Positions 2,878 to 32,165 of a DNA stretch of 64,000 bases are shown here, one piece after another. Made by a program: the position numbers and the translations under genes. The notes beneath the pieces were generated by a model, which did not search any database, was not told the DNA's origin, and saw only the letters and a program-made list of their open reading frames with translations. The DNA is from Luteithermobacter gelatinilyticus (GTDB taxonomy: Bacteria > Pseudomonadota > Alphaproteobacteria > Sphingomonadales > Emcibacteraceae), in contig NZ_CP040517.1 of NCBI RefSeq assembly GCF_005849285.1, positions 2,486,501-2,550,500 on the forward strand, read 5' to 3'. Numbering within the stretch: the stretch's first letter is position 1; the number at the start of each line of letters is the position of its first letter.

Positions 2878-2983
2878 TTTTTCGTTCCAAAAGTGCAAGA
2901 GTAATGAGTTGAAGATAATAGACAAAATGCATCAGTCCGCCAGACGGCATGAGACCGCAGACGGGATCATATTGCAAAAAGTC

Positions 2984-3424: not shown

Positions 3425-3442
3425 GGCTTCCGACATAATGAT

Positions 3443-3476
3443 GGGGAAAATACATTCCCCATATAGAAGTTGTCAA
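3443..3476 (-). promoter_or_regulatory. Candidate copper-operon promoter with dyad
   Basis: On the minus strand TTGACA (3471-3476) is followed after 18 bp by TATTTT (3447-3452). A 6-bp dyad GGGGAA/TTCCCC (3443-3460) covers the -10 region. A longer-than-usual spacer with a dyad is seen in metal-responsive promoters of the MerR/CueR type, although there the dyad lies inside the spacer. No regulator gene is adjacent. Confidence 0.5.
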
Positions 3477-3509
3477 TGTGCGAAACAGCCCTGCCCCGTT
3501 ATGTCACAT

Positions 3510-3779
3510 TAGAGTGAATTGTGAAGAGGTTGGCTCAATTCTGTTGGCGGATTGTGGCCCACCTCACGCGAAAGACGGCGCCGGGCGATGCGGGGCATCG
3601 GGCCAGGCGTCTGACAACGTGAGCGGCCCCAAGCCGCCAACCCGAAGGGCCGGTCAGGTCTGGTCCAGTTCCGGCGGGGTTTGGCTTGGCCGTACCGCCA
3701 GTATGGCCTGCGCCAAACCCCTGGCTCCTGAACCAGACCTGACCGGCAGAATGGGTCAACCTATTCACAATTCACTCTA
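3510..3779. mobile_element. MITE-like element, 270 bp, with terminal inverted repeats
   Basis: The left end begins TAGAGTGAATTGTGAA and the right end is its inverted copy, TTCACAATTCACTCTA. The similarity runs on for about 33 bases per end with a few mismatches. The ends begin with TA, compatible with TA target duplication as in Tc1/mariner-IS630-type elements. Inside is a second inverted repeat (GCCGGTCAGGTCTGGT near 3651 against its complement ending near 3746) and a third (TTGGCGG near 3541 against CCGCCAA near 3635), so the whole can fold on itself. It has no convincing coding frame. Its right end supplies the last Leu-Glu codons and stop of the prs homologue. Confidence 0.65.
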
Positions 3780-4653
3780 GATGATCCAGATGCCGGGCAA
3801 TCATGGGACAAAGATCAATTGCATTGGTGAAGTGGGAAATTGTGTTGCAGGTGACAATGCTGTCCACCCCCGCAGCCTTCAGGGCCTCATACCCATCGCC
3901 GGCAAACACCGCATGAACCCCCACGCAGACCGGCGGGCGCATCCCGGCATCACTTAAATGTTTTACCGTTTCAATCATGGTCCGTGCGGTGGAGATAATA
4001 TCATCAACCAGAACCGGCGTATGATCTTTATAGTGCTCTGTGTCCGGGACGGAAACCTGCACATCTTTGTCGCCTCGGCGTCGTTTGGTCAGAACCGTAT
4101 AGGGCGCTCCGGCCCGGCCCGCCACATCCGACACCCACTGCCGGCTTTCTTCATCAGGGCCGATCAGAACCGGCTGGGTTACATGCCGACTGATCCATAC
4201 CGCGATAGACTCCGCCGCATGAACTACTCTGGCCGGAATACTGTATATTTCCTCCAGGGATTTATGGCGATGCAGATGCGGATCGACAGTGATCAGAGCG
4301 TCGAAATATCGGGACAAGAACGCCGCAAAGATCTTGGACGTCACCGCCTCGCCCTCATGGAACCGTTTATCCTGGCGCATATATCCCAGATACGGCGCAA
4401 CCAGGGTCACGGAACGCGCCCCGAACTCCCGCGCGGTCTGGGCAAAAAACATCACCGTCATGGCCTTGTTGTCGGGGTGGTCCAGGCTACACAACAAGAT
4501 CACGTCCTTATCCCGCACCTCTGACTCCAGCCGCACCAGGCTTTCCCCGTCCGGAAAATGGTGCACCGTCATCTGTCCCAGTTCAGCCCCGCTTTCCCGA
4601 GCCAGAGAGACCGCCTGATCTTCATTGCCAGGATAGGCAAACAAAAGCCTCAT
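3772..4653 (-). CDS. Ribose-phosphate pyrophosphokinase (PRPP synthetase) homologue
   Basis: The 293-residue protein has the two Rossmann-like phosphoribosyltransferase domains of PRPP synthetases. It carries HHFPDGES near residue 31, the DPHLHRHKS catalytic region near 125 and the PRPP loop VLVDDIISTARTM near 215. Normal enzymes make PRPP and AMP from ribose 5-phosphate and ATP. This one is shorter than the housekeeping form (about 310-315) and lies last in a four-gene catabolic cassette, its ATG overlapping the phosphorylase stop (ATGA). I infer it links the ribose phosphate made by its neighbours to the pentose phosphate pool, perhaps running towards ribose 5-phosphate. The stop codon lies inside the end of the adjacent MITE-like element. 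Confidence 0.88.
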   Translation of the reverse strand: MRLLFAYPGNEDQAVSLARESGAELGQMTVHHFPDGESLVRLESEVRDKDVILLCSLDHPDNKAMTVMFFAQTAREFGARSVTLVAPYLGYMRQDKRFHEGEAVTSKIFAAFLSRYFDALITVDPHLHRHKSLEEIYSIPARVVHAAESIAVWISRHVTQPVLIGPDEESRQWVSDVAGRAGAPYTVLTKRRRGDKDVQVSVPDTEHYKDHTPVLVDDIISTARTMIETVKHLSDAGMRPPVCVGVHAVFAGDGYEALKAAGVDSIVTCNTISHFTNAIDLCPMIARHLDHLE

Positions 4654-6173
4654 TCCTCGTTCCCTTCTGTAATATCAATTATATCCTGTTTTTCTTCGAG
4701 ATAGGAAAGCGCATAATCCAGTTCGCCCGGCGAGCCGGCATATACGGTAAACAACGGCTGTCCCACATCCACCCGGGTTCCGACCGGTGCATGAAGATCG
4801 ACACCGGCGACATGATCAGCCGGAGCCCCCGCCAGTTTGGCCAGACGGGAAATGGATCTGTTGTCAATGCCCCTTACAAAACCCGCTCTTTTGGCTGGCA
4901 CGGCATAGCTGTACTGCCCCTTCGGAATATCCCGCATGCCCCCCTGAGCTTCGCAAATCGCCTGGAATTTTTTCCAGGCCCGGCCATCCTCCAGAATCGT
5001 CATCGCCAGAGTTCGGCCCTGCCCGTTTTTAACATCCGGCGAAAATTCCAAAATATGCCCGGCCAGATCAAGGGAGCGTTTTTTCAGATCCTCCGGTGCG
5101 TCCTTATCATTTTTCAGCACCGCCACCAGATCACGAGCTTCCAGCGCCGGACCAATGCCGCGTCCTACCGGCTGGCTGCCGTCGCTGATATGGACCCGGA
5201 CACCGGTGCCCATTGTGGAACCGGTGGCTTCCAGATAGGTGGTCAATTCCTCCGCCATAGCCATACTGCGCACCTTGGCGGTGGGGCCGACCGGCATGTC
5301 AATCAGCACATGCGAGGACCCGGCGGCGATTTTTTTGGACAAAACGGAGGCCACAAGCTGTCCTTCGCTGTCAAGATCGAGGGCTTTTTCCACCCGGATC
5401 AGCAGATCATCTGCCGGGCTGAGGGACACTGATCCTCCCCAGACCACACATCCCCCTTCCTGTTCAACCACCCGACGCATCTGCGGTACATCCAGATCTA
5501 CCGGCGCCAAAACCTCCATGGTATCCGCAGTCCCCGCTGGCGAGGTGATCGCGCGGGACGATGTTTTCGGCATTGTCAGCCCATAAGCGGCCACAATGGC
5601 GACAACGATGGGAGTGGTCCGGTTGCCCGGCAGCCCGCCGACACAATGTTTGTCCACCACCAGTTCCCGCCCCCAGTCGAGTCTGTCGCCGCTGTCCACC
5701 ATGGCGCGGGTCAGACTGACAATTTCTTCCCTGTTCAGCCGCCCGCCGGCGCAGGCCGTCAAAAAGGAAGAAATATGAATGTCCGAATAATGCCCGGCCA
5801 CGATGTCCTCAATAATGGTTCTGATCTGGTGATCCGACAAAGCATTGCCATAGATTTTCGAGCGCACAAAACTTAATGAATGCACGGCAGGGGGGTGGGA
5901 AACATGAATTTCATCCCCTTCCCGGGCTCCCAATTTTTCAAAGGCATATTTGGAAAGTCCTGCTTCTCCCTGTTTGAGAATATCCGAATTCACCATATTC
6001 AGGGTCGCCGTCAGCGACGCACCGTTCAGCGAAACCTTGACCCGCGCCTGAACCTCAAATCCTTCGGCCCGGCAGACCGCACAATCCTCGCGCATGTAGA
6101 TCACAGCTTCCTTATAGGTATCAATACCCAGACGGCGCAGTTTCAAAACAGATTTTACCTGGTGCTGTTGCAT
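4650..6173 (-). CDS. Archaeal-type AMP/thymidine phosphorylase family enzyme
   Basis: The protein has 507 residues, the length of archaeal AMP phosphorylases and not that of the 440-residue bacterial DeoA. An extra N-terminal domain (about 1-90) precedes the phosphorylase core. The core shows KHCVGGLPGNRTTPIV near residue 175, PKTSSRAITSPAGTADTMEV near 205 and CVVWGGSVSLSPADDLL near 245, all hallmarks of this family. Archaeal members cleave NMP with phosphate to base and ribose 1,5-bisphosphate, while bacterial members are often annotated as thymidine phosphorylase. The start at 6173 is chosen because GGGGG is well spaced from it, and a second ATG lies two codons upstream. It follows the ribonuclease gene by 13 bp and overlaps prs. 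Confidence 0.9.
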   Translation of the reverse strand: MQQHQVKSVLKLRRLGIDTYKEAVIYMREDCAVCRAEGFEVQARVKVSLNGASLTATLNMVNSDILKQGEAGLSKYAFEKLGAREGDEIHVSHPPAVHSLSFVRSKIYGNALSDHQIRTIIEDIVAGHYSDIHISSFLTACAGGRLNREEIVSLTRAMVDSGDRLDWGRELVVDKHCVGGLPGNRTTPIVVAIVAAYGLTMPKTSSRAITSPAGTADTMEVLAPVDLDVPQMRRVVEQEGGCVVWGGSVSLSPADDLLIRVEKALDLDSEGQLVASVLSKKIAAGSSHVLIDMPVGPTAKVRSMAMAEELTTYLEATGSTMGTGVRVHISDGSQPVGRGIGPALEARDLVAVLKNDKDAPEDLKKRSLDLAGHILEFSPDVKNGQGRTLAMTILEDGRAWKKFQAICEAQGGMRDIPKGQYSYAVPAKRAGFVRGIDNRSISRLAKLAGAPADHVAGVDLHAPVGTRVDVGQPLFTVYAGSPGELDYALSYLEEKQDIIDITEGNEE

Positions 6174-6186
6174 GATCATCCCCCTG

Positions 6187-7554
6187 TTACAGTTCCACCG
6201 TCTGCTTGTATTCCGGCACTGCGCAGTCCCAATCGAACCTGTCTTCTATTTTTTCCTTCATGCTCTGGGCCGCCCCTTCCTCGCCATGGACCACAAACAC
6301 CTTCCGCGGGGGCGCGGTGAAATTTTCCATCCAGGCCAGGATTTCCTCATAATCCGCATGCGCCGACATGTTGTCCAGTTGCACGATCTGGGCCTGAACC
6401 GGCCACATTTCGCCATGAATCTTGATTTCCTTCTCCCCGCGCACCAGCCGGTCCCCCCGGGTACCGCCGGCCTGAAACCCTGCCAAAAGAATGGTATTGC
6501 GCGCATCACCGAGATAGTGTTTCAAATGGTGCAACACACGTCCGCCCGTCGCCATGCCGCTGGCGGAAACGATTACTTTCGGCATACTGTTGGTTCTGGT
6601 ATAGATGGCCTTAGACTGTTCCACCGTCCGGGTATAGTCCGCCACACCGCACACCTCCATGCATAACTTCTGTGGCAAACGGTGATCGTTTAAATGCCGA
6701 CACAGCAAGCTAGAGACATTGATCGCCATCGGGCTGTCCAGGAAAATCGGCAGATTTGCCGGAATCCGGCCCTGCCGTTTCAATTCATAAAGATAATACA
6801 GGATCATCTGGGCCCGCCCCACAGCAAAGGACGGGATAACCACCGTACCACCCCGGATTATTGTTTCCTGAATGATGTGCTCAAGATCATCCACAGGATC
6901 CGTCGCGCCATGACGGCGATCGCCATAGGTGGATTCCACAATCAGATAATCGGCATTCTGTATCTTGGCCGGTTCTTTCATGACTGGGTCGTTTGGCCGG
7001 CCAATATCGCCTGAGAACAAGACGGAGGGGCCGTTTTCCTGAGTGATCCTGACAAAGGACGCCCCCAGGATATGTCCTGCCCGGTGCAGCGTGAACCCCA
7101 GTTCCTCGCTCAAGGCGTGGAACTGTCCGAAATCCACTGGCCGGAAATGCTGAAGCGCGTCGCGGGCTTCCTTTGCCGTGTACAAGGGCAAGGCAGGCTT
7201 ATGCCGCGTATAACCGTACCGGTTGGCACGCTCGGCATCTTCTTCCTGAATGCGCCCGGAATCAGGCAACAGGATTTTACACAGCTCAAACGTGCTCTCG
7301 GAACAATATATCGGTCCTTTGAACCCGGCTCGGGCCAGTTTGGGGATATAGCCACTGTGATCCAGATGGGCATGGGTCAACACCAGCGCATCAATATCCC
7401 GGGGATTGACCGGCAACACATTCCAGTTTCGCAGGCGAAGCTGTTTGTGTCCCTGAAACAGGCCGCAGTCAATCAGGATTTTCCGGCCCTCGGCCTGGAG
7501 CAGGAATTTTGACCCGGTAACGGTTCCCGTTGCGCCTAAAAATGTGAGTTTCAT
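6187..7554 (-). CDS. Beta-CASP metallo-beta-lactamase ribonuclease (YSH1/CPSF type)
   Basis: This 455-residue enzyme belongs to the MBL-fold, beta-CASP nucleases that cut RNA. The metal motif THAHLDHSGYIP lies near residue 58, the later metal Asp in SGDIGRP near 175, the beta-CASP segment VIVSASGMATGG near 325, and motif SAHADYEE plus VFVVHGEEGA near the C terminus. Family members act as RNA endo- or 5'-exonucleases with two zinc ions. The ATG at 7554 follows AGGA, and the codon before it is TTG. It sits 21 bp after the phosphoketolase-like gene and 13 bp before the NMP phosphorylase gene, suggesting it supplies nucleotides to that enzyme. Confidence 0.93.
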   Translation of the reverse strand: MKLTFLGATGTVTGSKFLLQAEGRKILIDCGLFQGHKQLRLRNWNVLPVNPRDIDALVLTHAHLDHSGYIPKLARAGFKGPIYCSESTFELCKILLPDSGRIQEEDAERANRYGYTRHKPALPLYTAKEARDALQHFRPVDFGQFHALSEELGFTLHRAGHILGASFVRITQENGPSVLFSGDIGRPNDPVMKEPAKIQNADYLIVESTYGDRRHGATDPVDDLEHIIQETIIRGGTVVIPSFAVGRAQMILYYLYELKRQGRIPANLPIFLDSPMAINVSSLLCRHLNDHRLPQKLCMEVCGVADYTRTVEQSKAIYTRTNSMPKVIVSASGMATGGRVLHHLKHYLGDARNTILLAGFQAGGTRGDRLVRGEKEIKIHGEMWPVQAQIVQLDNMSAHADYEEILAWMENFTAPPRKVFVVHGEEGAAQSMKEKIEDRFDWDCAVPEYKQTVEL

Positions 7555-7575
7555 CAAACGATCCTTGGTTCTGTA

Positions 7576-10017
7576 TTATGAGAGTTTGGTGATCACGCCG
7601 TCCGGGGACAGGGTACCGTCCAGGGCCTGACGTTCCGCATCGGACAGGATTTCCGCCTCATCCCCTCCCAGAAGAGCGATACTTTCCCGCAAGATATGCG
7701 CCCAGCTGCAACGATTGACAAAATGCATATCGTCCACACCCAGCGTGCCACCCCGATTGATAAACCCCAGCGCGCTCACCGCCCGCCCCCGCCACAAGGG
7801 CTGCAACGTGCCCAGCATCACCTCGGGACGGGTATGACTGACAATCAGCAAATTTTGCACCGCCTTAGGAAGCAGCCGATCCTGTACGCTTCCGGGGGCA
7901 ACAAGCGCCGCCTCCCCAGGGTTGCGGGGCCGGCGAAAGCGTCCCGGTTCGATCAGATAGGATACGGTATGCGGGATTTTTTTGGCCGTAAGCCGGCGTG
8001 AGGCTTTCAGGACCTCAACAAGTTGATAGGCGCCGATAGCCACAAGGGTTAGGCGGGCCTTGTCCGGTTCATATTCTGTCCAAGTCAACCGAAGGCCGCC
8101 CTCCCCCAAAAGGATGCGAGCCTCCGCCGGGGAAAACAGGACGGGCATCTTGCGTTTCGGAACAACCAATGTCCAGATCTGTCCCTGGGTCTGATACAGC
8201 CGGGCGAGCGTTTCCGCCGCGGTGTTGAAATCTGCCGGAAACAGCACCCGGGAAATATCCGACGTTTCCGACAACATGCTTTCCGCAAGCGACGGGTCCT
8301 GATGGGACAGTTCATTCTTGCTGTTCTCCCAGGTATTGGAGGTCAGCACCAGGGGCACAGAAAGCCATTTCGCCGGTCGGCCAAGGTCTTTTTGGTGTTT
8401 GGAAAAGATCACTTCCTGACGCGCACCACCGAACATCTTGGCGCCGAAAGCCTCATAGGTCACGATCAGATTGATCCCCCCTTTATTCCCGAAAGCCGCC
8501 CCGGCCACAGCTTCCTCATTCAGCGCGGTAATCACTTTCCCGAGGGTAGATTCTTCCGCGCCTTTTTCCGGATCCACCACCCGAAATTCAAGAGCCTCCA
8601 GCGTATCATCCATGCGGTTGGACAGCATCTCATCCGGATTGCCGACCCGCGGCCTGAGATGCGGATTGGCTTTAACAATGGCGAGAAACGTCTCATCAAC
8701 TGCATCCATGGGGCTGACAAATTCCCCTGTTCCGGCCTCCACTGCCCGCTCCTTCACCTGTCGGGCCGGCAGGGCGGGAAGCGCCTTGAGACTGACATTG
8801 CGATGGGCCAGCGGATGATCCCGTTCCCGAGGACGAGCGGATGCCTCATGGTTCTGGAACAGGCCGATGGCCTGCTCCAGTTCGGGACGGGGGACAAACA
8901 GTTTTTTGCTATGGGTGTTGAACCGTCGGGCGGCCACCTCATTAAACCGGGGGTTGTCTACCAAAGGCAGGTTATGGGCATAGTTGGTCCCCTCGTTATA
9001 AAACCCCGCGCCTTTGGGGGCTACTGCAATGCCATAAGGGATGGGGACATAATAGCGGTCAATCGAGGTCAGGTTGTCCGCGTAAGCCTGCAACCGGCGT
9101 TCCTGTTCCCAGATCGCCCAAGCAAAGGCTGCCGGATCGCGGCCGTCAAACACGATTGGTTCAAAGCCGTGCAGCTTGAGATGTTTGACAAACCAATCCA
9201 CACCGCCTTCCTGCGACAGCGTTGTGCGTTGGTCGATACGGCGGCCATTGGCAATCATGATGGGCACCACGCTGCCGCAATCCTCGGCCCGCCACCAGCG
9301 CGGCGTCCAGTCCGCCCCGCGCTGCTCCTCGAAAGCACCGTCACTCAAAAACGCCACTAGGGATTCCCCCGGCAAGGGCATATGGACATATTGCAGGGAC
9401 GCAAATCCCAGATAGCCACCTTCCAGATGCCCGCCAGCCGTATGAGGATTGACATGGCTGCCCAGGGGCGAGTCCTGCTGTCCCTGGGCATTCAGTCTGT
9501 AGGAATAAAAATCCTGTGCAAACCGGCTCAGCCCCTCCTCACTGAGATCATACCGTTCGGCATGGGCGGGGGTCATATTGTTCAGCAGCAGATTGACGCT
9601 GTCAATGGCGGCTACCGCGTGGCCCTGCCCCATGACCCAGCTGCGCGTGAAACCGGTCAGGGCATTGGCCAGCATATAGCCCACATAGGCCGGAATCATG
9701 TTCAACGAGCCGCCGAGATGACCCTGCGGATCCGTCTTGAAATCCTCCGGCGCCAGCGCTCGTCCGTCCAGATACACCCGACGGGCATAGGTCTGGTGCA
9801 CCGCCAGCCACATGGCCGCATTGGTGATACGGTCCGCCGCTGCCAACAGAGTATAAAACGGCGCGCCGTCACCAGAAACGCCTTCTGCTGCCAACGCCGC
9901 CGCCATGTCCTCTATGCGCCGGACTGTTTCCGGGGCATGCCGGATGACACCATATCCCTTACGCCATTCTTCCGCCCCCTGTGGAGACAAGGAAGCCGCG
10001 TCTATTTTATCCTGCAT
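7576..10017 (-). CDS. Divergent phosphoketolase (XFP family)
   Basis: At 813 residues this has the length and domain order of thiamine-diphosphate phosphoketolases, which split xylulose 5-phosphate (or fructose 6-phosphate) with phosphate into acetyl phosphate and an aldose phosphate. Recognisable blocks are GHLGGSLNMIPAYVGYMLAN near 105, MGQGHAVAA near 130 (GPGHG in common forms), SHVNPHTAGGHLEGGYLG near 190, SDGAFEEQRG in the ThDP site and FSKHQKDLGRPAKW with LSHQDPS near 540-570. Several blocks differ from standard Xfp, so it belongs to a diverged subfamily. GGAG precedes the ATG by seven bases. It is the first gene of the four-gene cassette and lies 32 bp after nhaA. Confidence 0.87.
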   Translation of the reverse strand: MQDKIDAASLSPQGAEEWRKGYGVIRHAPETVRRIEDMAAALAAEGVSGDGAPFYTLLAAADRITNAAMWLAVHQTYARRVYLDGRALAPEDFKTDPQGHLGGSLNMIPAYVGYMLANALTGFTRSWVMGQGHAVAAIDSVNLLLNNMTPAHAERYDLSEEGLSRFAQDFYSYRLNAQGQQDSPLGSHVNPHTAGGHLEGGYLGFASLQYVHMPLPGESLVAFLSDGAFEEQRGADWTPRWWRAEDCGSVVPIMIANGRRIDQRTTLSQEGGVDWFVKHLKLHGFEPIVFDGRDPAAFAWAIWEQERRLQAYADNLTSIDRYYVPIPYGIAVAPKGAGFYNEGTNYAHNLPLVDNPRFNEVAARRFNTHSKKLFVPRPELEQAIGLFQNHEASARPRERDHPLAHRNVSLKALPALPARQVKERAVEAGTGEFVSPMDAVDETFLAIVKANPHLRPRVGNPDEMLSNRMDDTLEALEFRVVDPEKGAEESTLGKVITALNEEAVAGAAFGNKGGINLIVTYEAFGAKMFGGARQEVIFSKHQKDLGRPAKWLSVPLVLTSNTWENSKNELSHQDPSLAESMLSETSDISRVLFPADFNTAAETLARLYQTQGQIWTLVVPKRKMPVLFSPAEARILLGEGGLRLTWTEYEPDKARLTLVAIGAYQLVEVLKASRRLTAKKIPHTVSYLIEPGRFRRPRNPGEAALVAPGSVQDRLLPKAVQNLLIVSHTRPEVMLGTLQPLWRGRAVSALGFINRGGTLGVDDMHFVNRCSWAHILRESIALLGGDEAEILSDAERQALDGTLSPDGVITKLS

Positions 10018-10049: not shown

Positions 10050-11315
10050 TTAAGTTGTTTCCCCGTTAGTTATTTCCCCGTCAGTCATTTCCGGTTGGCC
10101 CATTCGTTCTGCTGGCAGCTCATCGGACTGGTCTTCCGACTGTTTTGCGGGCAGATGGACATGGAGCCAGACAGAACCGATCACCGCCGACAGCAGGGAA
10201 CCGATCAGAACCGCCATACGGCCGGTTTCCGGATTGCCATTATGGGGAAAAGCCAGGGCGTTCAAAAACAACGCCATGGTAAACCCGATGCCCCCCAGCA
10301 GCGCTACACCAAAAACCAGCCGCCAGGTGACATGACTGCCCAGCCGGGCAATTCCCGACATATGAGCCAGCCAGGCAAAGGAAAAGATACCCAGCGGTTT
10401 ACCCACCACCAGCCCCGCGACAATGCCAAGCGATGGCATGACAAGCAACTGGGAAAAAGTAAAATCCGCCAGCACAATCCCGGTATTAAAAAACGCAAAC
10501 AGCGGGACGATAAAAAACGTAACCCACGGATGCAGCCCCCTTTCAACAAAGTGGAGCGGGACATAGACACCGTCTTTATGGAGGCGCAGGGGCAAGGCCG
10601 CTCCTACCATCAGCCCTGCCAGCGTCGGATGAATGCCGGAGTCCTGAAACGCGGCCCATAAAAAGATCCCGATCACAATATACAGGGATGCATGGGTAAC
10701 GTCGAACCGGTTCAGAAAAAACAGCGTGACAAGTCCCAGAACCGTCACGGCCAGAACATTCAGGCTCAGATGGCCGCCATGCAGCAGAACAATAATCAGA
10801 ATGCCCCCCAGATCGTCAAAAATGGCCAACGAGGCCAGAAACAGTTTCAGTTCTACTGGCACCCGCCGGCCGAACAGAGACAGCACCCCCAGGCTCAGCG
10901 CAATATCCGTCGCCGTCGGAATGGGCCAGCCCCGGGAAAATTCAGGATTATTTCCGTTTATCAGAAGATACAGCGTCGCCGGCACCACCATGCCGCCCAG
11001 CGCCGCAAAGGCCGGCAGAAAGATCTGCCGCTGGGCCGACAGGTGACCTTCCAAAATTTCCCGTTTGATTTCCAGGGCAACCGCCAGAAAGAAAAACGCC
11101 ATCAGCCCCTCATTGACCCAGACCACCAGTGGTTTCTCCAGGCTGAAACCGCCAAGACTGATGGACAGCGGGGTATGATGTACCAGGTCATAAAACGGGC
11201 GAAGCGGCGTGTTGGCCCAAAGCAGCGCCACACCGCAAGCGCCGATCATCATCAGGCTGCCCCACTGGTCCATACTCGCGGTTTTGCCGGCAATGATAAA
11301 ATGACGTTTGCGCAT
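10050..11315 (-). CDS. nhaA: Na+/H+ antiporter NhaA
   Basis: The 421-residue inner membrane protein has about twelve hydrophobic segments and the NhaA signatures FFLAVALEIKREILEG near 85 and PIPTATDIALSLGVLSL near 140, with the two Asp pairs of the ion site (TATDIA and AIFDDLGGI). It exchanges sodium or lithium for protons. The start at 11315 is chosen over a longer frame because GGGAG precedes it and the extension is not hydrophobic or conserved-looking. The C terminus is hydrophilic. It precedes the phosphoketolase gene by 32 bp and may share its transcript. A structured leader lies upstream. Confidence 0.95.
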   Translation of the reverse strand: MRKRHFIIAGKTASMDQWGSLMMIGACGVALLWANTPLRPFYDLVHHTPLSISLGGFSLEKPLVVWVNEGLMAFFFLAVALEIKREILEGHLSAQRQIFLPAFAALGGMVVPATLYLLINGNNPEFSRGWPIPTATDIALSLGVLSLFGRRVPVELKLFLASLAIFDDLGGILIIVLLHGGHLSLNVLAVTVLGLVTLFFLNRFDVTHASLYIVIGIFLWAAFQDSGIHPTLAGLMVGAALPLRLHKDGVYVPLHFVERGLHPWVTFFIVPLFAFFNTGIVLADFTFSQLLVMPSLGIVAGLVVGKPLGIFSFAWLAHMSGIARLGSHVTWRLVFGVALLGGIGFTMALFLNALAFPHNGNPETGRMAVLIGSLLSAVIGSVWLHVHLPAKQSEDQSDELPAERMGQPEMTDGEITNGETT

Positions 11316-11327
11316 ATTTTGGTGCCG

Positions 11328-11390
11328 CTCCCGAAAGCGTGAAAAATTAAAATAACGGCCAGTTGTCCCCTTCGGCCCTGAAATCGCTTT
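11328..11390 (-). promoter_or_regulatory. Structured nhaA leader, riboswitch candidate
   Basis: On the transcript, AAAGCG (11385-11390) can pair with CGCTTT (11334-11339), the latter touching the nhaA ribosome site GGGAG (11328-11332). Inside is a GGCC/GGCC hairpin whose loop reads GAAGGGGACAACT. A folded leader whose stem abuts the ribosome site suggests control of translation. nhaA genes are known to carry cation (lithium) riboswitches, but I could not match the consensus by eye. Confidence 0.35.
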
Positions 11391-11467
11391 CCATCTTATT
11401 CTGTTATACGTTTTATGGAACTGATCTGTGTCATGAATGTGTCTCTGGAAGACCACAAAAGGAAATG

Positions 11468-12121
11468 TTACGCACCGGACCCTGACAATACTCTTGGAAT
11501 GAACCCCGGCACCGCTTTGGCGTACTCGTCATAGGCTGTACCGAATGCCGCCCGGGCGTCCGCTTCCTCTTTGCTGGCCAGCCGGATATACATATACGCC
11601 AGCACGGGAAACAGCACCAGGGTCGGCAGGGTCGGCCACTGCAACAGAAAACCGAACATGATCAGGATAAAACCGATATACTGTGGATGACGAACTTTGC
11701 TGTACGGTCCCGTCACCGCCAGCTTTCCTTCCTTCTGAGCCTTGTAGAGAACACTCCAGGCCGCCGACAATATCCAGAACCCACCGCCGATAAACACAAA
11801 ACTGAGAAGATGCATGGGATCGAAATGGGCATCGCCCTCAAACCCCAAAATAGTATGCCACAAATGACCATTCTCATGGGTCAGAAAATCCACGCCGGGA
11901 TATTTTTCCGCGAGCCATCCGGACAGCAGATATATCGTCAGCGGAAAGCCGTACATTTCCGTAAACAGCGCCACAAGAAAGGCTGAAAACGCCCCGAATG
12001 ATCGCCAGTCGGTTTTGGTTTGCGGTTTGGCAAAACTGAAAGCAAAAATAATAAAAATCAGCGAATTCAGGATCACCAGAGACCATAACCCATATGCGTT
12101 GTCCATGCCGTTTTCCATCAT
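11468..12121 (-). CDS. Isoprenylcysteine carboxyl methyltransferase-like membrane protein
   Basis: This 217-residue protein has four to five membrane segments and the PEMT/ICMT-type signature GPYSKVRHPQYIGF near residue 140, where SAM-dependent membrane methyltransferases bind the cofactor, and ends with EYAKAVPGFIPR. The family methylates prenylcysteine or phospholipids in some organisms, but the bacterial substrates are mostly unknown. The ATG follows directly on the stop of the DUF2933 gene (TAAATG), so the two are coupled. Family members of this kind often occur beside DUF2933 proteins in metal-resistance islands, and the setting here agrees. Confidence 0.75.
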   Translation of the reverse strand: MMENGMDNAYGLWSLVILNSLIFIIFAFSFAKPQTKTDWRSFGAFSAFLVALFTEMYGFPLTIYLLSGWLAEKYPGVDFLTHENGHLWHTILGFEGDAHFDPMHLLSFVFIGGGFWILSAAWSVLYKAQKEGKLAVTGPYSKVRHPQYIGFILIMFGFLLQWPTLPTLVLFPVLAYMYIRLASKEEADARAAFGTAYDEYAKAVPGFIPRVLSGSGA

Positions 12122-12382
12122 TTATTCTCCGTCTCTGCCATCCGAATTTCCGGGATGGCCATGTCCGCCATGTCCCCCATGTCCGCCATGCATAAAAATA
12201 TGCAGTAGCGGACATAACAGCAAAATCAGCCAGATCCAGTTGCCCAAGAGATGGGCTTTATGCTCGGCAATCAGGAAATAGCCGATGAGGCCGAAAAAAA
12301 AGATTGCCACAATCCCCGCCGGGGTGCGCCACCAGGCCTTCTGCTTTTCAGGTTTATGGTAATGTTCATGATGTTGGTCCAT
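12122..12382 (-). CDS. DUF2933 small membrane protein
   Basis: The 86-residue protein has a His-rich cytoplasmic start (MDQHHEHYHK), two hydrophobic segments (about 23-41 and 47-62) and a C-terminal His/Gly repeat (HGGHGGHGGHGH). The pattern fits DUF2933, a small membrane family found in copper and heavy-metal clusters. The His repeats suggest metal binding. It lies between the EamA transporter gene (4 bp) and the methyltransferase-like gene (no gap). Confidence 0.8.
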   Translation of the reverse strand: MDQHHEHYHKPEKQKAWWRTPAGIVAIFFFGLIGYFLIAEHKAHLLGNWIWLILLLCPLLHIFMHGGHGGHGGHGHPGNSDGRDGE

Positions 12383-12386
12383 GATC

Positions 12387-13286
12387 CTATCCTGTGATGT
12401 TTTGCCTGTTTTTGTCGTTCCCGTTCACCAGAACGATTCCCAGGACTGTCATAACAATCCCCGCCGCCACCATGGCCCCGATTTTTTCCTGAAAGAAAAC
12501 TTGTCCCAAGGACAGCCCGAAAACCGGCACCAGAAAACTGAAGGCGTTGGCGTGGTTGAGTTCCGCCTGTTCAAGAATACGGCACCAAAGCCAATAAGCC
12601 AGCGCCGTCCCCGGCACGGCCAACCCCAGGAGACTCAGCACAAACGGCCTTTCCCACATAACCGTCCCGACGTCTTCTGTTGCCAAAGCGGGTATGGCCA
12701 AAAAAACACCGCCAAGAACCAACTGCCATCCCATGGCATGTAAGGCATCCATCCGGCCCGCCTGATACCGGATCAGCACATTGCTGACCGTAATGCCCAA
12801 CGCGGCAAGAATAATATAAACAACGCCACGCACATACCTATCGTCGGTGCCGGTTTCCGAGAACAGCGTCGGTAAAGCAATGAACAGAACCCCCAGAAAC
12901 CCCAGAAAAAGACCGGCTTTCCCCCGTCTGTTCAACCGTTCCTTCAACACAATCGCCGCCAGACCGGCGGCCATGAGCGGCTGGGTATTGGCGATCACCG
13001 TGGCAATGCCTGGTGACACAAATTCCGCCGCATGAAACATGCCGAGAAATCCCAATGTCGTCGCCCCGAGCCCGATTGCCCCCAGCATCATCCATGTTCT
13101 GAGGCCAGTGGGGAACGAACAATTCATCATCAGGGCGGGAACAAGCAAAACAACACCCGCCAGAAACGCCCGCAATGCGGCAAAAGTGAGATGTGGCGCA
13201 TAGGGCAGTCCCCAGTAGATCAGGGGAAAACACATGGCCCATAAAAACATGACCAGAATTGTCTGAACCGTCAAACTGGCCGTCAT
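12387..13286 (-). CDS. EamA/DMT-family transporter
   Basis: The 299-residue protein has ten hydrophobic segments in two homologous halves, the layout of the drug/metabolite transporter superfamily. Features include the first-helix MFLWAMCFPLIYWGLPYAP and the short loop GTALAYWLWCRILEQ in the second EamA repeat. The ATG at 13286 is used, because the longer frame begins with TTG. Substrate is unknown, with amino acids, nucleotides and metabolites being the usual guesses in this family. It is divergent from the RND operon and is the first gene of the small membrane-protein group running towards nhaA. Confidence 0.85.
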   Translation of the reverse strand: MTASLTVQTILVMFLWAMCFPLIYWGLPYAPHLTFAALRAFLAGVVLLVPALMMNCSFPTGLRTWMMLGAIGLGATTLGFLGMFHAAEFVSPGIATVIANTQPLMAAGLAAIVLKERLNRRGKAGLFLGFLGVLFIALPTLFSETGTDDRYVRGVVYIILAALGITVSNVLIRYQAGRMDALHAMGWQLVLGGVFLAIPALATEDVGTVMWERPFVLSLLGLAVPGTALAYWLWCRILEQAELNHANAFSFLVPVFGLSLGQVFFQEKIGAMVAAGIVMTVLGIVLVNGNDKNRQNITG

Positions 13287-13410
13287 TCTAATTCCCAAAA
13301 GCCCATGGTATACCCCGCATCTCCCTTTCTTTTACTAGCAACGGCAATCCTGATACCTCTGATACGTCATCAAAGGGGGTCATCCCTCAAAAGTTTGCCC
13401 CCGACAATCT

Positions 13411-13508: not shown

Positions 13509-14783
13509 ATGCCGTTAAGAAAAACCGTGCCGTTTGAAAAAACCGTTCTCAGGGCTTGTCTTCTGGCCACACTGTGTCTGTGGCCAGGCCCGGCGATATC
13601 CGCTGAGGAGGAAAGCGAGCATGTCAGGCTTGTTCCGGACAGCACCCTGTCCCTCAGCAACGTCATAGATGCCGCCGCGAACCAGGCCCCGGACCGGCTC
13701 ATGGCCGCGGCACGGGAGACGACAAGCCGCGCCTATGCCAAACACGCCGGCAGCCTGTTTGCCGACAGCCCGCAGCTTTCCGTCAGCCACCAGAATGATT
13801 TTCTGCTCTCAGACCAGGGGTTGCGGGAATGGGAAGGCCGGCTGGAACTTCCCCTCTGGATCCCCGGCGAAAAATCGGCCTATCAGAACAGGGCCCGCAC
13901 CGCCGAAAACGAGGCCCGGGCCTATCGTGCCCGGATGATCTGGAATGTCGCCCGTGAGGTCAGGGAATTGGTCTGGCAGGTAAAACTGGCGGAAGCGGCG
14001 CTTGAAGAAAGTCGCAAGGGGCTGGAGATGGCCGAAAAACTGCTGCACCATGTGGAACGGCGCATTGCTTCAGGAGATCTTCCCAGAAACAGCTTGATCC
14101 TGGCCCGACAGGAAGTCGCCGCCCGAAAAATTGCCCTCAAGGGGGCCGAACGGGATTATGTGGACAGCGCCGTTGCCTATCAGAGCTATACCGGGCTGGA
14201 AGCCATCCCCGCTGAAATCAACGAGTCCCCTCAAGAGGTCGAAGACGCGTACGCCGTCCCCCCTGTGCTTCATGCCCGGCGGCTGGTTGAATATTACCGT
14301 GCCGAATATAACGCCGTTCGACAAAGCTGGAGCCGTTCTCCCACACTCTCCCTTGGTGTGAAACGCGAACGCGGCGGCTTTGATGACCGTTCGGTGGATT
14401 CCGTAAGCCTTGGCATTTCCATTCCCTTGGGCAGCGGGGCGCACACAGCCCCGAAACGGGCGGAAGCCGCGGCAAGGCTGGCCGAAGCGGAACGGCAAAA
14501 GGAACGCGCCCTCAGGGCCCAGAAAATTGCCCTGCATGAAGCGGAACATGAACTGGAAGTCTGCCTGATCCAGCAGAAGATTTCCCGGGAACACCATGAC
14601 ATGGCCCGTGAAAACCTGCAGCTGGCCCAAAGGGCCTTTGACCTCGGGGAAAGTGACCTGATGGACCTTCTGCGGGTTCAGGACCAATATGTGCGCTCTT
14701 CCACAGCCCACACCCGACAGCAACTTGAATGCGGCCGGGCCATCGCCCGGCACAATCAGACAAAAGGACTCCTTCCGGAATGA
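13509..14783 (+). CDS. TolC-family outer membrane efflux channel (CusC/CzcC-like)
   Basis: The 424-residue protein has a signal peptide (about 1-30) and long amphipathic coiled-coil helices with Ala/Glu/Arg heptads in two similar halves, as in outer membrane efflux proteins of the CzcC group. It would form the exit duct for the RND pump encoded by the next two genes. The stop overlaps the adaptor gene start (ATGA). It is shorter than TolC itself and in the size range of CzcC. The operon starts here and runs through to the sensor kinase. Confidence 0.9.
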   Translation: MPLRKTVPFEKTVLRACLLATLCLWPGPAISAEEESEHVRLVPDSTLSLSNVIDAAANQAPDRLMAAARETTSRAYAKHAGSLFADSPQLSVSHQNDFLLSDQGLREWEGRLELPLWIPGEKSAYQNRARTAENEARAYRARMIWNVAREVRELVWQVKLAEAALEESRKGLEMAEKLLHHVERRIASGDLPRNSLILARQEVAARKIALKGAERDYVDSAVAYQSYTGLEAIPAEINESPQEVEDAYAVPPVLHARRLVEYYRAEYNAVRQSWSRSPTLSLGVKRERGGFDDRSVDSVSLGISIPLGSGAHTAPKRAEAAARLAEAERQKERALRAQKIALHEAEHELEVCLIQQKISREHHDMARENLQLAQRAFDLGESDLMDLLRVQDQYVRSSTAHTRQQLECGRAIARHNQTKGLLPE

Positions 14784-15901
14784 AGAAAAAGACCTTGACC
14801 CTATTGGCTGTGTGCCTGACGGCGGGTTCAGCCCTTCCCCCTATAATCTCCCCGGTTCATGCCCAGGAGATCATTGCCCTGGATGAAACAAAATTCGATA
14901 CACTCGGTATCCGCACCATCAGACCGGAGCCCGCCGAAAATGTCTGGAGTATGGCCTATCCCTCACAGGTCACCATCCCCAATGACCAGATCCGGATCAT
15001 CACCTCTCTTTATCCGGGGCTGATCAAAACCCTTTATGTGGCGGAAGGAGACAAGGTCAAACGCGGTCAGAAACTCGCCGAAATCGCCAGCCCTGCCTTT
15101 CTGGATGCCCAGCAGAACTATCTGGATGCCGTGGCAGCGCTGGAAATGGAACGGAAAAACTTTGCCCGGGACAGTTTGTTGCTTGAGGAAGGTATCATTT
15201 CCGAAAAAAGATATCTGGCGGCGCGCACAGCCCTTACTCAAGCAGAAAACAATCATGCCCGGCAAAAACAGGCCCTGATGGTTTCGGGAATTGACGCTTC
15301 ACAGATTTCCCGACTGGATCAGACCCGGCAGATTTTCGGCACACTCCCCCTCACGGCACCATTCGACGGCGTCATTCTGGAACAGATGGGCCGCCCGGGA
15401 GAAAAAATTGACGAAGCATCAGCACTGTACAGCCTGGGACAGACCAGCCCCATCTGGCTTCAGATCCATGTCCCGCTTTCCTTCCGTCAAAACCTCACAC
15501 CGGGCGGGCGCGTCAAGGTCGCTGATCCGTCCCTTGAAGGCCGGATCATTTCCATCGGGCGTATGATTCATGAGGCGGATCAGGGCATTCTGGTGCGGGC
15601 CGAAATCCGTGAGGAGGCCAATAAACTGATCCCCGGCCAGTTTGTGCGCGTTCATCTGGAACAGAAGTTTGACACCCGCACCGCTTTCCGCGTGCCGCGC
15701 CAGGCGGTTGTTCGCGAGGGCAGCCGGGCCTATGTTTTCCGGCAGGCGGCGCAGGGGTTTGCCCTGCTGAGTGTCTCGGTTCTGGCGGAAGAGCAGGACG
15801 CGATGATCATAGAGGCGGAACTTGCCGCAACAGACCGGTTGGCCATCAGCGGCATTGGCACCCTAAAAGGCATGTGGCAGGGACTGGGGAGTGAGGAATA
15901 A
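14780..15901 (+). CDS. RND efflux periplasmic adaptor (CusB/CzcB-like)
   Basis: The 373-residue protein starts with a signal peptide (MKKKTLTLLAVCLTAGSA). It then has the membrane-fusion layout: lipoyl-like half VAEGDKVKRGQKLAEI near 85, a coiled-coil hairpin, the second half APFDGVILEQMGRPGEKI near 195, and beta-barrel domains. The start at 14780 is chosen because it overlaps the channel gene stop and begins the signal peptide. It bridges the channel and the inner membrane pump. The stop overlaps the pump start by one base (TAATG). Confidence 0.92.
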   Translation: MKKKTLTLLAVCLTAGSALPPIISPVHAQEIIALDETKFDTLGIRTIRPEPAENVWSMAYPSQVTIPNDQIRIITSLYPGLIKTLYVAEGDKVKRGQKLAEIASPAFLDAQQNYLDAVAALEMERKNFARDSLLLEEGIISEKRYLAARTALTQAENNHARQKQALMVSGIDASQISRLDQTRQIFGTLPLTAPFDGVILEQMGRPGEKIDEASALYSLGQTSPIWLQIHVPLSFRQNLTPGGRVKVADPSLEGRIISIGRMIHEADQGILVRAEIREEANKLIPGQFVRVHLEQKFDTRTAFRVPRQAVVREGSRAYVFRQAAQGFALLSVSVLAEEQDAMIIEAELAATDRLAISGIGTLKGMWQGLGSEE

Positions 15902-18900
15902 TGCTGAAACAGCTGATCAAGTTTTCCCTCACCCAGAGGCTGATGATCCTTCTGGTCTCTCTGCTGATTGTCGGCGGCGGCTGGGTGGCGTTCCAGGCCA
16001 CCCCCATTGACGCTTTCCCCGATGTATCAACAACCCAGGTCAAAATCATCCTCAAGGCGCCCGGCATGACACCCGAGGAAGTAGAAGCCCGCATCACCGC
16101 GCCGGTGGAGGTGGAGATGCTGGGACTGCCGAAACAAAGTATCCTGCGTTCCATCACCAAATATGCCCTCACCGATATCACCATCGACTTCGAGGAAGGC
16201 ACAGATATTTACTGGGCCCGCCAGCAAGTGGCCGAACGGCTGAACGCCATCATGGAAGACCTGCCGGACGGGGTGAGCGGCGGCATCGCCCCCATGACGA
16301 CGCCCCTGGGCGAAATGTTCATGTTCAGCATCGAAGGAGACAGCCTGTCCCTGATGGAAAAACGATCCCTGCTGGACTGGGTGATCCGGCCGGCGCTCAG
16401 GACCGTGCCGGGGGTAGCTGATGTGAACGCCTTGGGCGGTCATGTACGCAGTTTCGAGGTGATTCCCGACAATCAGGCGCTTCTGGCGCGGCAGATCCCG
16501 TTGGGCGAACTGATCGACGCACTGAAACAGAACAACCGTAATGACGGGGCTGGGCGCCTTGATGAAGGTGAGGAAGTTCTCTTGGTGCGGACCGGTGGCA
16601 GCATCAACACCCTTGAAGATGTGGCCAATATCGTGGTCCGCCCCCATGCCACGGAGCCTGTCCGGGTGCGCGATATCGCCCGGGTGCAGCTGGGGGCTAT
16701 TACCCGGTATGGCGGCGTGACCGCAAATGGAAAAGGCGAAACCGTGGAAGGGCTGGTGCTGGGGCTGCGCGGCGCCAATGCACGGGAGGTGGTGGACGGC
16801 GCGCGAGCACGTCTTGCCGCCCTGGAACCCAGCCTGCCGGATGGCGTCAGCATCAATATTTTTTATGACCGCGGCAAATTGATCGACAAGGCCATTGCTT
16901 CCGTGTCCAAGGCGCTGGCCGAAGCCATCGTCCTGGTTTTGCTGTTGCTTGTGGTGTTTCTTGGGGATCTCAGAGCCGCCCTTACCGTCGCCCTGATTTT
17001 GCCCTTGGCGGCACTGAGCACCTTTATCCTCATGCATCGTTTTGACATGTCCGCCAACCTGATGAGCCTTGGAGGACTGGCCATTGCCATCGGCATGCTG
17101 GTCGATGCCGCCGTGGTGGTGGTGGAAAATATTGTCACCCATCTCGGACAGCACAAAAACAGCCGCCAGCCCCGCTTGCATATGATTTATCGAGCGGTGA
17201 GCGAGGTTTCACTGCCGGTGGCATCCGGCATCCTGATCATTATTATCGTGTTCCTCCCGCTCTTGTCGTTGCAGGGGCTGGAAGGCAAGCTTTTTGTCCC
17301 CGTGGCGCTGACCATCGTTTTTGCCCTATCGGCCTCCCTTGTGCTGTCGCTGACGGTGATTCCGGTTATTGCCTCTTTTCTGTCGTTTAATTCGGGGCAC
17401 AAGGAAACCTGGCTGGTTCGCAACCTGCAAAAATATTACCGTCCCATATTGGCCTGGTCGCTGGATCATAGCCGGATTGTCGGAATGGCCTCTGTGGTCC
17501 TGCTTGTCCTGGCGGGCGTCACCTATAGCCAGGTGGGCAAAACCTTCATGCCAACCATGGATGAAGGCGACATTATCCTTCAGGCCGAAAAGCTGCCCTC
17601 CATTTCCCTGAATCAGTCCCTGGAAATCGACCTGATGACGCAGAAAAAACTGATGACGGAAATCCCCGAAATCATCGGTTATGTCTCCCGCGCCGGGTCC
17701 GATGAATTGGGGCTGGACCCGATGGGGTTGAATGAAACTGATGGCTTTCTGGTCCTGAAACCCCGGTCAGAATGGACCGTGGACAGCAAGGAAGACCTGA
17801 TTGAAAAAATTCAGGCCGTTATCGCAGATATTCCCGGCGTGGCCTTCAACTTCACCCAGCCTATTGACATGCGCGTCTCCGAAATGCTGACCGGGGTGCG
17901 CGGCGACATTGCCATCAAGATTTTCGGGGAGGATCAAGACAAACTCAACCGCCTCGGCGAAGAAATTGTCAGCCTGCTGTCCGGCATTGACGGTGCGGGC
18001 AACATTTACAAACCGGCCAATGACGGGGCACAGTATCTGCGCCTTTCCGTCGATCGGCTGGCGGCCGGACGGCTGGGGCTGAATGTGGATGACCTGACCA
18101 CGGCGCTCCGGGCCCAGATTGAGGGCATTACGGTAGGCACCGTCTATGAAGGGGCCCGACGCACGCCGCTTTTGGTGCGGGGCGCAGAACAACTGCGCAA
18201 CAATCCGGCGCGATTTCAGAATCTCACGCTCACCCTGCCCGACGGCCGGAACGTGCCGCTATCCAGCGTGGCCCGTATTGACCGGGTCGAGGGCCCGGTT
18301 TCCATCAAGCGGGAAAAAGGATCGCGCATGGTGGTGGTGATCGGCAATGTCAAGGGCCGCGATCTGGTGGGTTTTGTGGACGAAGCCAAACAAATAGTCG
18401 CAGAAAACCTCACCCTGCCCAGCGGCTATTATCTGGAATGGGGCGGCCAGTTTGAAAACCAGCAACGCGCCTCCAAACGGCTGGCGTTGGTGGTGCCGGT
18501 GGCCATTGGCCTGATTTTCCTGCTGCTGTTTTCCACCTTCGGGTCGGTTCGCCAGGCGCTTCTTGTGCTCAGCAACATTCCCTTCGCCATGACCGGCGGC
18601 ATCATCGCCCTGTGGCTGTCCGGGGAATATCTGTCGGTACCTGCTTCTGTGGGCTTTATCGCCCTTCTGGGCATCGCCGTGCTTAACGGCGTCGTGATGG
18701 TCACCTATTTCAATCAGCTGAAGGCCATGGGCAAACCGGTCATGCAGGTGATTTTTGACGGTGCCAGCCGGCGGCTGCGCCCGGTGATGATGACCGCCAG
18801 CATCGCCGCCTTCGGGCTGGTGCCGCTGCTGCTGGCCACGGGACCCGGCTCGGAAATTCAGCGCCCCTTGGCGGTGGTGGTCATTGGTGGCCTGTTCACC

Positions 18901-24708: not shown

Positions 24709-24711
24709 AGC

Positions 24712-29717: not shown

Positions 29718-29765
29718 AATACTCTCCTTTTTTGGATAAGTGATTTTTGGATAGGCTGTTATTTT

Positions 29766-32042: not shown

Positions 32043-32072
32043 ATTCAGAAATCCTCCGGATCCTTTATTACA

Positions 32073-32086
32073 GTTTCTTCAGAAAC
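32073..32086. promoter_or_regulatory. Dyad GTTTCT-TC-AGAAAC before nosR
   Basis: A perfect 6-bp dyad lies 31-44 bp upstream of the nosR start. A similar dyad (TTTCAG-AC-CTGAAA) occurs at 32152-32165. Both may be sites of the same unknown regulator. Confidence 0.35.
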
Positions 32087-32151
32087 AACATATGCCGTCC
32101 CGGAGCATTTATCCAAAACAGGCCACAGCATTTGCCTTATCCCCCCGCTCG

Positions 32152-32165
32152 TTTCAGACCTGAAA
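32152..32165. promoter_or_regulatory. Dyad TTTCAG-AC-CTGAAA in nosR leader
   Basis: A perfect 6-bp dyad with a 2-bp centre, 110 bp upstream of nosR. Just upstream on the minus strand is a weak promoter-like pair (TTGTTC, 16 bp, TAGTCT at about 32166-32193), so the dyad would lie at its start point. Confidence 0.35.

Follow-up and report, generated by a model that had tools for sequence, protein, structure and literature searches.

A mobile bacterial gene trio around an NMP-phosphorylase-type enzyme and a candidate RuBisCO-free route from RNA to ATP

In Thermococcus, nucleoside monophosphates (NMPs) are handled by a pentose bisphosphate pathway made up of an AMP/NMP phosphorylase, a ribose 1,5-bisphosphate (R15P) isomerase and a form III RuBisCO, and nucleoside ribose ends up as acetate and alanine in T. 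kodakarensis (PMC12628685; this and the other articles cited by PMC number are drawn on for the excerpts available). The non-carboxylating pentose bisphosphate pathway of halophilic archaea metabolizes R15P in the absence of RuBisCO through guanosine phosphorylase, ribose 1-phosphate kinase, R15P isomerase, ribulose 1,5-bisphosphate phosphatase and an aldolase, with no NMP phosphorylase and, in the excerpt, no mention of phosphoketolase (PMC9700705). Here we describe a cassette of four genes lying within a 64,000-nucleotide stretch of Luteithermobacter gelatinilyticus (NZ_CP040517.1, positions 2,486,501 to 2,550,500; hereafter the window), which encode a divergent phosphoketolase-like protein (PKL), a metallo-beta-lactamase (MBL)/beta-CASP/RMMBL nuclease (bCASP), an NMP-phosphorylase-type enzyme (NMPp) and a homologue of phosphoribosyl pyrophosphate (PRPP) synthetase (PRS). 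The cassette has the NMP-phosphorylase family in common with the Thermococcus pathway and, as family membership suggests, the R15P-forming reaction, and it would resemble the halophilic pathway in metabolizing R15P without RuBisCO. It differs from the former in that its genome holds no isomerase or RuBisCO match, in that the PRPP-synthetase homologue, an RNase and often phosphoketolase with acetate kinase are found instead, and in being bacterial, often plasmid-borne and placed in a copper or low-oxygen context. The same annotated families (thymidine phosphorylase family, ribose-phosphate pyrophosphokinase and MBL; phosphoketolase and acetate kinase) occur in Bradyrhizobium diazoefficiens, where, unlike in the window, the first three and the phosphoketolase-acetate kinase pair form two separate operons.

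The conserved core of the cassette is the trio bCASP, NMPp and PRS, with phosphoketolase as an optional partner. We read the whole, at a probability of roughly 0.55, as a mobile energy-salvage module for situations in which respiration is blocked (low oxygen, copper stress), leading from NMPs to acetyl phosphate and on to ATP. A bolder formulation, possible though in our judgement doubtful, is that bacteria ferment their own RNA by means of this mobile trio, which would include a new R15P:ADP phosphotransferase and constitute a RuBisCO-free counterpart of the archaeal pentose bisphosphate pathway. We found no proposal of this bacterial route in the literature searched (few subscription papers were covered), and articles naming AMP phosphorylase, judged by titles and abstract openings, contained nothing on this cassette.

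The trio recurs on plasmids of Proteobacteria, Bacteroidota and Chlamydiota, as well as in other proteobacterial genomes (loci and genomes are designated by L and G numbers). Of 21 plasmid stretches fetched on account of a cassette gene, 14 have the full trio annotated, and these belong to Alpha-, Beta- and Gammaproteobacteria, Bacteroidota (Pontibacter) and Chlamydiota (Criblamydia). Other stretches hold parts of the cassette: a Sulfitobacter dubius plasmid has NMPp-PRS-PKL together with an unannotated bCASP whose sequence is split over two frames; those of Sphingobium xenophagum and Legionella adelaidensis carry NMPp-PRS with no bCASP in the stretch (a bCASP match exists on a different L. 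adelaidensis plasmid); a Shinella stretch has NMPp alone of the cassette genes, that of Bradyrhizobium BTAi1 bCASP alone and that of Alteromonas PKL and acetate kinase only, while the Phenylobacterium PKL stretch is devoid of the trio, which lies 58 kb away. Among the plasmid matches listed (60 of 103 PRS records and 60 of 105 NMPp records), 32 records hold both PRS and NMPp, at most 6 kb apart in 30 and at most 300 bp apart in 23. PRS/bCASP pairs, likewise among the matches listed, amount to 26 (mostly Sphingobium; three overlap with the 32 records), and their gap is 26.9 kb in one and 1,573-1,574 bp in 25, which is the size of NMPp (one pair was confirmed by annotation). Within the Alphaproteobacteria, NMPp is present in 62 of 387 genomes, and around 60 of its 63 places (our own, G344 and G365 were left out) bCASP was found within 6 kb in 37, PRS in 29 and both in 24. 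The earlier note on this DNA had suggested surveying the co-occurrence of all four families: the trio proved to be co-conserved, whereas the four together generally are not (57 of the 62 NMPp-bearing Alphaproteobacteria have no XFP match), and strict four-gene co-conservation was consequently rejected. As a further observation, the Bacteroidota and Chlamydiota trios have their MBL gene immediately preceded by a gene for a protein annotated as ATP-cone (L021, 1972-2817; L022, 5807-6649); the L022 protein has no NCBIfam family match, and it could be a nucleotide sensor.

The arrangement of the trio bears on the explanation that four independent stress genes merely travel together via copper-resistance or stress islands and plasmids. 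Copper or heavy-metal genes do surround many cassette copies, and FabI or universal stress proteins surround others, as such an explanation would have it; yet the trio genes overlap by 1-4 bp or are separated by short gaps while the flanking genes vary, a copper-type ATPase exceeds the threshold at only 5 of the 60 Alphaproteobacterial NMPp loci, and the two B. diazoefficiens operons, though separate, respond together (see below). We therefore hold hitchhiking to be quite improbable.

The NMPp of the window passes the cut-offs of NF003338 (706 bits; cut-off 434) and TIGR02645 (623 bits; cut-off 435), and we name it NMP-phosphorylase-type, not AMP phosphorylase proper, because the cut-off of the AMP_phos model TIGR03327 was missed (503 bits; cut-off 535). 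Its nearest solved relative is the AMP phosphorylase of T. kodakarensis (PDB 4ga5, E 1.8e-105, residues 62-496), with which it shares the motifs GGxPGNxT, PKTSSRAITSxAGTAD and VWGGxxxLxPADD; at the phosphate and ribose sites its motifs match those of 4ga5, unlike those of the pyrimidine-nucleoside phosphorylase compared, and an ordinary thymidine phosphorylase was rejected on this ground. The archaeal-type NMP phosphorylase of 507 residues announced in the earlier note thus stands as to family, the length applying from the second ATG and the AMP_phos cut-off being missed. Judging by its family, the enzyme would split 5'-NMPs with phosphate into the base and R15P. For the fate of R15P, the archaeal route was rejected in the source genome, as neither RuBisCO (PF00016) nor the R15P-isomerase family (PF01008) has a single match in its whole 3.15 Mb, which bears out what had been said of the window. 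Among the 62 NMPp-bearing Alphaproteobacteria, 53 have no RuBisCO match, and the PF01008 matches of 36, which we take to be probably MtnA, are never within 100 kb of NMPp on the same contig. At L044 (G238 contig 231), NMPp has a RuBisCO large-subunit gene about 4 kb away, the only such case in the 62 genomes. A phosphopentomutase-like handling of R15P was set aside, since the cassette has no such gene.

The PRS of the window, which holds both PRS domains (Pfam), scores 422.8 bits on NF005537 (cut-off 322), a model that is also passed by four other cassette copies and not by the genome's own housekeeping PRPP synthetase (154.5 bits; 25-26% identity to the window PRS). In the PDxGG stretch, which we take to be the pyrophosphate loop of PRPP synthetase, the cassette homologues read PDxES in 45 of 45 readable rows (44 distinct copies, as our own gene was entered twice, from the window and as L003; the 46th row is a broken frame), and L015, a cassette copy counted apart because a distance rule grouped it with the housekeeping set, brings the distinct copies to 45. 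Among further copies PDxES is directly visible in 9 of 11 and likewise in L098, with L095 masked by an overlapping match. PDxGG was found in our own housekeeping enzyme (L002) and in a paralogue in L071, and five solved relatives (PDB) have GG or GA at this position; archaeal PRPP synthetases have PDxGA or PDxGG. The cassette homologues have the domains, the metal-site Asp and the catalytic Lys and Arg in common with PRPP synthetase: D167, K190, R192, D217 and D218 are invariant in 45 of 45 readable rows (K190, R192 and D167 being equated with human K194, R196 and D171 by motif, not alignment), the DD of the ribose-phosphate loop is invariant, and the FPDxE and YMRQD motifs are kept. Besides PDxES, they differ in an HLHR motif and in the glycine of the ribose-phosphate (R5P) loop, which is replaced in 42 of the 45 rows. 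For the human enzyme, the pyrophosphate loop has been named and roles have been given for D171, K194, R196 and T225 (PMC11476008).

By sequence, the cassette PRS forms a distinct subfamily, new here, with ES for GG in the putative pyrophosphate loop and the catalytic residues kept. As a glutamate stands where pyrophosphate should bind and the rest of the machinery is intact, we propose the reaction R15P + ADP -> ribose 5-phosphate + ATP; a one-phosphate enzyme acting on R15P appears to suit these sequences better than ordinary PRPP synthesis. The suggestion that PRS might be the missing link of the route is hence kept as a proposal, in a changed form: the reverse reaction of PRPP synthesis fits poorly, since the putative loop differs from PDxGG in all readable cassette homologues, and the protein probably does not act as a reverse-running PRPP synthetase.

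The same residues can also be read in terms of phosphoribosyl recycling, by which NMPs of damaged RNA would be phosphorolysed and PRS would make PRPP from R15P (with ATP) or from ribose 5-phosphate to restore nucleotides, NAD or histidine following stress, the phosphoketolase being a separate stress-fermentation gene of the same regulon. This is what the NCBI name of PRS (ribose-phosphate diphosphokinase), the preserved FPDxE and YMRQD motifs with catalytic K and R, and the frequent absence of phosphoketolase beside the trio would lead one to expect. A preprint survey of PRPP synthetases across all domains, which distinguishes bacterial classes II and IV-XI and in its excerpt names no cassette of this kind, holds the catalytic residues to be conserved across classes and infers from this that PRPP synthesis is preserved (PMC13252144). 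On the other hand, the genome already possesses a housekeeping PRPP synthetase with PDxGG, the putative pyrophosphate loop of all readable cassette homologues contains an acidic residue, and the clustering of acetate kinase and phosphoketolase with these genes would be left unexplained, so that we regard recycling as unlikely.

For bCASP, Pfam detects the Beta-Casp and RMMBL domains, and the nearest solved relative is the ribonuclease TTHA0252 (2dkf), to which it aligns with THAHLDH, AGH, SGDIG, SAHAD and VHGEE, the HxHxDH metal site being kept; the beta-CASP ribonuclease predicted previously accordingly appears to be of TTHA0252 type, by domains and metal motifs.

PKL shares the XFP domains with canonical phosphoketolases (PF03894, 132.3 bits, cut-off 22; PF09364, XFP_N, 48 bits, cut-off 23.7), while the C-terminal domain PF09363 has no match in the window protein. 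It stays far short of all NCBIfam phosphoketolase cut-offs (its best score is 129 bits where 777 are required), as do its orthologues in L008 and L017. Identity is 46-76% to ten orthologues and about 23-28% to canonical phosphoketolases. In comparison with four canonical sequences (L003, L010 and L011, duplicates of our own genes or a partial protein, were left out), the equivalents of H97, H142, D183, N215, H320, S440, E479, N549 and H553 are kept, whereas that of H548 is Lys and the GDGE motif reads SDGA (numbering of the B. breve phosphoketolase). The designation as phosphoketolase-like seems tenable for a divergent protein with XFP domains above the Pfam gathering score. Most orthologues bear the RefSeq name xylulose 5-phosphate 3-epimerase, and a literature search on this name, judged by titles, yielded nothing on PKL. 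On a Phenylobacterium zucineum plasmid (L090, 7968-12558), PKL is succeeded after 28 bp by gnd, a 2.2-kb gene annotated as encoding an NAD-dependent 6-phosphogluconate dehydrogenase, which suggests that PKL is fed by pentose 5-phosphates. A beta-CASP gene stands divergently beside PKL in six genomes (L102, L103 and L106-L109) that have no NMPp match.

The altered residues near the thiamine site (GDGEAE -> SDGAFEEQ and DHNGF -> SKNEL), in what is a divergent clade, leave room for a changed substrate: PKL might take a pentose bisphosphate (ribulose or xylulose 1,5-bisphosphate) as its direct substrate, the group expelled being the C1 phosphate rather than water, with PRS as some other R15P-processing enzyme. 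We consider this very improbable, given that the equivalents of the catalytic set are largely kept, that canonical phosphoketolases stand in other trio clusters and that gnd lies just after PKL in Phenylobacterium.

Two distant phosphoketolase clades, PKL and the canonical one, join the same trio. Of the 15 plasmid records that hold a PKL orthologue (identity 46-56%; the plasmids are partly related to each other), at least 14 also carry NMPp, within 1.5 kb in 12, at 9 kb in one and at 58 kb in one. A canonical phosphoketolase accompanies the trio on a Legionella fallonii plasmid and in L055 (order AckA-XFP-PRS-bCASP-NMPp) and stands beside PRS-NMPp, without bCASP, in L100; in L101, AckA-XFP lies 7-11 kb from NMPp-PRS on the opposite strand, with bCASP just beyond. 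A Criblamydia sequanensis plasmid (L022, 1667-11692) has an operon-like run of P-ATPase, phosphoketolase (canonical type), GlgP, ATP-cone, MBL, thymidine phosphorylase, PRS and acetate kinase genes, which we interpret as a glycogen and RNA phosphorolysis set. All four cassette genes plus acetate kinase are found in L096, L098 and L099, and the four genes appear in three different orders (PKL-bCASP-NMPp-PRS in the window; PRS-PKL-bCASP-NMPp in L096, L099 and Ciceribacter; bCASP-NMPp-PRS-PKL in L098 and Paracoccus sediminicola).

Across a phylum sample of 328 genomes (partly the same genomes as in the class sample), NMPp occurs in 40, XFP in 61 and both in 15, compared with 7.4 expected (Fisher p=0.002, phylogeny ignored); the two are at most 4 kb apart in G000, G426, G485, G544 (two copies) and G630, about 10-20 kb apart in G526 and G577, and farther apart or on other contigs in the remaining eight. 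Within the Alphaproteobacteria they are linked in G000 and G410 only; NMPp and acetate kinase are shared by 25 genomes (15.5 expected, p=0.003), and acetate kinase is present in 16 of the 17 XFP genomes. Acetate kinase, whose presence was to be checked, adjoins a Pta/Ptb-type gene in the source genome and, at 9 of 25 PKL loci, lies within the stretch that was fetched (L004, L005, L008, L009, L013, L017, L096, L098 and L099; three of these are close-kin metagenome-assembled genomes, MAGs), directly next to PKL in L008 and L017.

Expression data from B. diazoefficiens connect these families with low oxygen (its genes are equated with those of the cassette by annotated family names, not alignment). 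Under microoxic conditions the MBL gene bll3115 (protein log2 fold change 2.9, transcript fold change 15.4), the PRS gene bll3116 (4.4 and 7.7), the thymidine phosphorylase gene bll3117 (2.1 and 5.1) and the phosphoketolase gene bll2518 (4.3 and 8.2) are all up (PMC6515984, Table 2). Furthermore, bll3117-bll3116-bll3115 and bll2518-bll2517 are predicted operons with FixK2 boxes, and deletion of fixK2 lowers bll3115, bll3117, bll2518 and bll2517 by 6.6- to 30.6-fold (PMC9104804). In our sample, four genomes of one genus (6.9-8.0 Mb) carry NMPp and XFP, and in G342, the one inspected at both places, the trio (L031) and an XFP-AckA pair (L111) stand apart. Upstream of the first cassette frame, the 60 NMPp loci contain 8 perfect FNR/FixK boxes (TTGAYNNNNRTCAA) in 23,353 bp, compared with 35 in the remaining 944,482 bp of these loci, that is, about nine times the expectation (0.87 expected upstream, p=3.6e-6). 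The eight box loci comprise trios (L027, L028 and L031), NMPp with bCASP (L035, L041 and L046) and NMPp alone (L029 and L043).

The source genome is a single contig of 3,145,891 bases, and the ORF listing of the window contains all four adjacent minus-strand genes of the earlier note (Table 1). Measured from the starts in the ORF listing, their gaps come to 18, 7 and -4 bp; the ATGA overlap noted before is thus present, whereas the 21 and 13 bp given then result from inner ATG starts. The genes do form one unit, as had been claimed, and the unit is longer: since NhaA, ICMT, DUF2933 and EamA follow further upstream on the same strand at gaps of 32, 11, 0 and 4 bp, it probably comprises seven or eight genes.

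Table 1. Features of the cassette and its surroundings (window positions)
Feature	Position	Strand	Remarks
PRPP-synthetase homologue (PRS), NF005537 (PRK07199) subfamily	3772..4653	-	293 aa; loop PDEES replaces PDxGG; proposed ribose 1,5-bisphosphate phosphotransferase
NMP-phosphorylase-type enzyme (NMPp), NF003338/TIGR02645	4650..6179	-	509 aa; 507 from second ATG
MBL/beta-CASP/RMMBL nuclease (bCASP)	6187..7557	-	456 aa from TTG, 455 from ATG
Divergent phosphoketolase-like protein (PKL)	7576..10017	-	813 aa
NhaA Na+/H+ antiporter	10050..11456	-	probable member of cassette transcription unit; adjoins PKL also in Micavibrio-type MAGs
ICMT/PEMT-type membrane methyltransferase	11468..12121	-	recurs beside trio on plasmids
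DUF2933 protein	12122..12382	-	recurs beside trio on plasmids
EamA transporter	12387..13298	-	possible first gene of unit; 4 bp gap
CopB	281-1051	-	copper-resistance context, downstream of cassette
Multicopper oxidase	1048-2925	-	copper-resistance context, downstream of cassette
CusCBA-type efflux (OEP, HlyD_D23, ACR_tran)	13509..18966	+	copper/metal context, upstream, divergent

The cassette sits in a copper-resistance island, as CopB and a multicopper oxidase flank it on one side and a CusCBA-type pump, accompanied by a two-component pair, on the other. Among related loci, the best are those of Micavibrio-type MAGs (L004, L005 and L009; 70-78% identity to the window proteins), in which the order NhaA-PKL-bCASP-NMPp-PRS is kept (L005 and L009) or kept up to a contig end inside NMPp (L004). 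Within the source genome the cassette is, by sequence comparison, an accessory island, because a PKL search of 40 genomes (our own and 39 relatives) gave matches in our own and one other only, the latter being a canonical-looking phosphoketolase of 28% identity. Between the cassette and the next gene lie 335 bp (window 3437-3771) in which an imperfect inverted pair, GGTCAGGTCTGGTCCAG / CTGAACCAGACCTGACC, was spotted by eye and may represent a terminator or repeat element. Genes for N2O respiration were observed not far from the copper island (nos cluster, 23183-32312: ApbE, an ABC transporter, NosD, NosZ at 27756-29717 and a NosR-like Fer4_5/FMN_bind protein at 29766-32042), and the single perfect FNR/FixK box of the window (32299-32312) precedes the NosR-like gene.

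On the energy-salvage reading, every reaction of which we infer from sequence, the bCASP nuclease would open RNA breakdown, which exonucleases of the cell would complete to 5'-NMPs. NMPp would convert NMP and phosphate into base and R15P, from which PRS, with its GG -> ES loop, would shift the single C1 phosphate onto ADP, yielding ribose 5-phosphate and ATP (a new proposal). Presumed housekeeping isomerase and epimerase would provide xylulose 5-phosphate, which PKL would cleave to glyceraldehyde 3-phosphate and acetyl phosphate, the latter serving the genomic acetate kinase for ATP formation; in genomes lacking a phosphoketolase, the ribose 5-phosphate of the trio would enter the ordinary pentose-phosphate route. 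The idea put forward in the earlier note is thus partly supported, stronger in outline and altered in detail, with phosphoketolase as one outlet.

Several observations weigh against this reading. At the level of the enzymes, NMPp stays under the AMP_phos cut-off, PKL is very divergent from assayed phosphoketolases, the significance of the ES loop is read from sequence, predicted structures are unusable (mean predicted local distance difference test score, pLDDT, 47 for PKL and 41 for PRS), and the PRPP-synthetase survey takes the bacterial classes as retaining the PRPP reaction (PMC13252144). At the level of gene association, 18 of the 60 NMPp neighbourhoods have neither bCASP nor PRS within 6 kb (some contigs are cut), XFP is missing from most NMPp-bearing Alphaproteobacteria, and the 5 genomes that these share with the 17 XFP genomes of the class, against 2.7 expected, are not significant (p=0.12), all p-values ignoring phylogeny; PKL also occurs in at least 8 genomes without an NMPp match (L102-L109 were fetched), and at 16 of 25 PKL loci no acetate kinase was found in the fetched stretch. 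As for regulation, an FNR/FixK box had been expected before the window's own cassette and the scan found no perfect one upstream of it, and the B. diazoefficiens rows, in the table excerpt, show no bacteroid induction and no FixK2-target mark (PMC6515984).

If the bolder formulation is true, ribosomal RNA would be turned into bases and ribose 5-phosphate, the energy of phosphorolysis being kept as ATP and another ATP being added by phosphoketolase and acetate kinase, and RNA would represent a fermentable reserve in copper poisoning or anoxia, beside glycogen (as GlgP in the Criblamydia cluster would have it). Three of the four database names (thymidine phosphorylase, ribose-phosphate pyrophosphokinase and xylulose 5-phosphate 3-epimerase) are probably misleading, and the ES-loop subfamily of PRPP-synthetase homologues is predicted to handle a bisphosphate, not pyrophosphate. 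Should the reading hold, it would account for two low-oxygen operons of Bradyrhizobium that are given no pathway in the published tables, as far as these were available, and would reveal a widespread module by which bacteria may live off RNA, without RuBisCO, when respiration fails.

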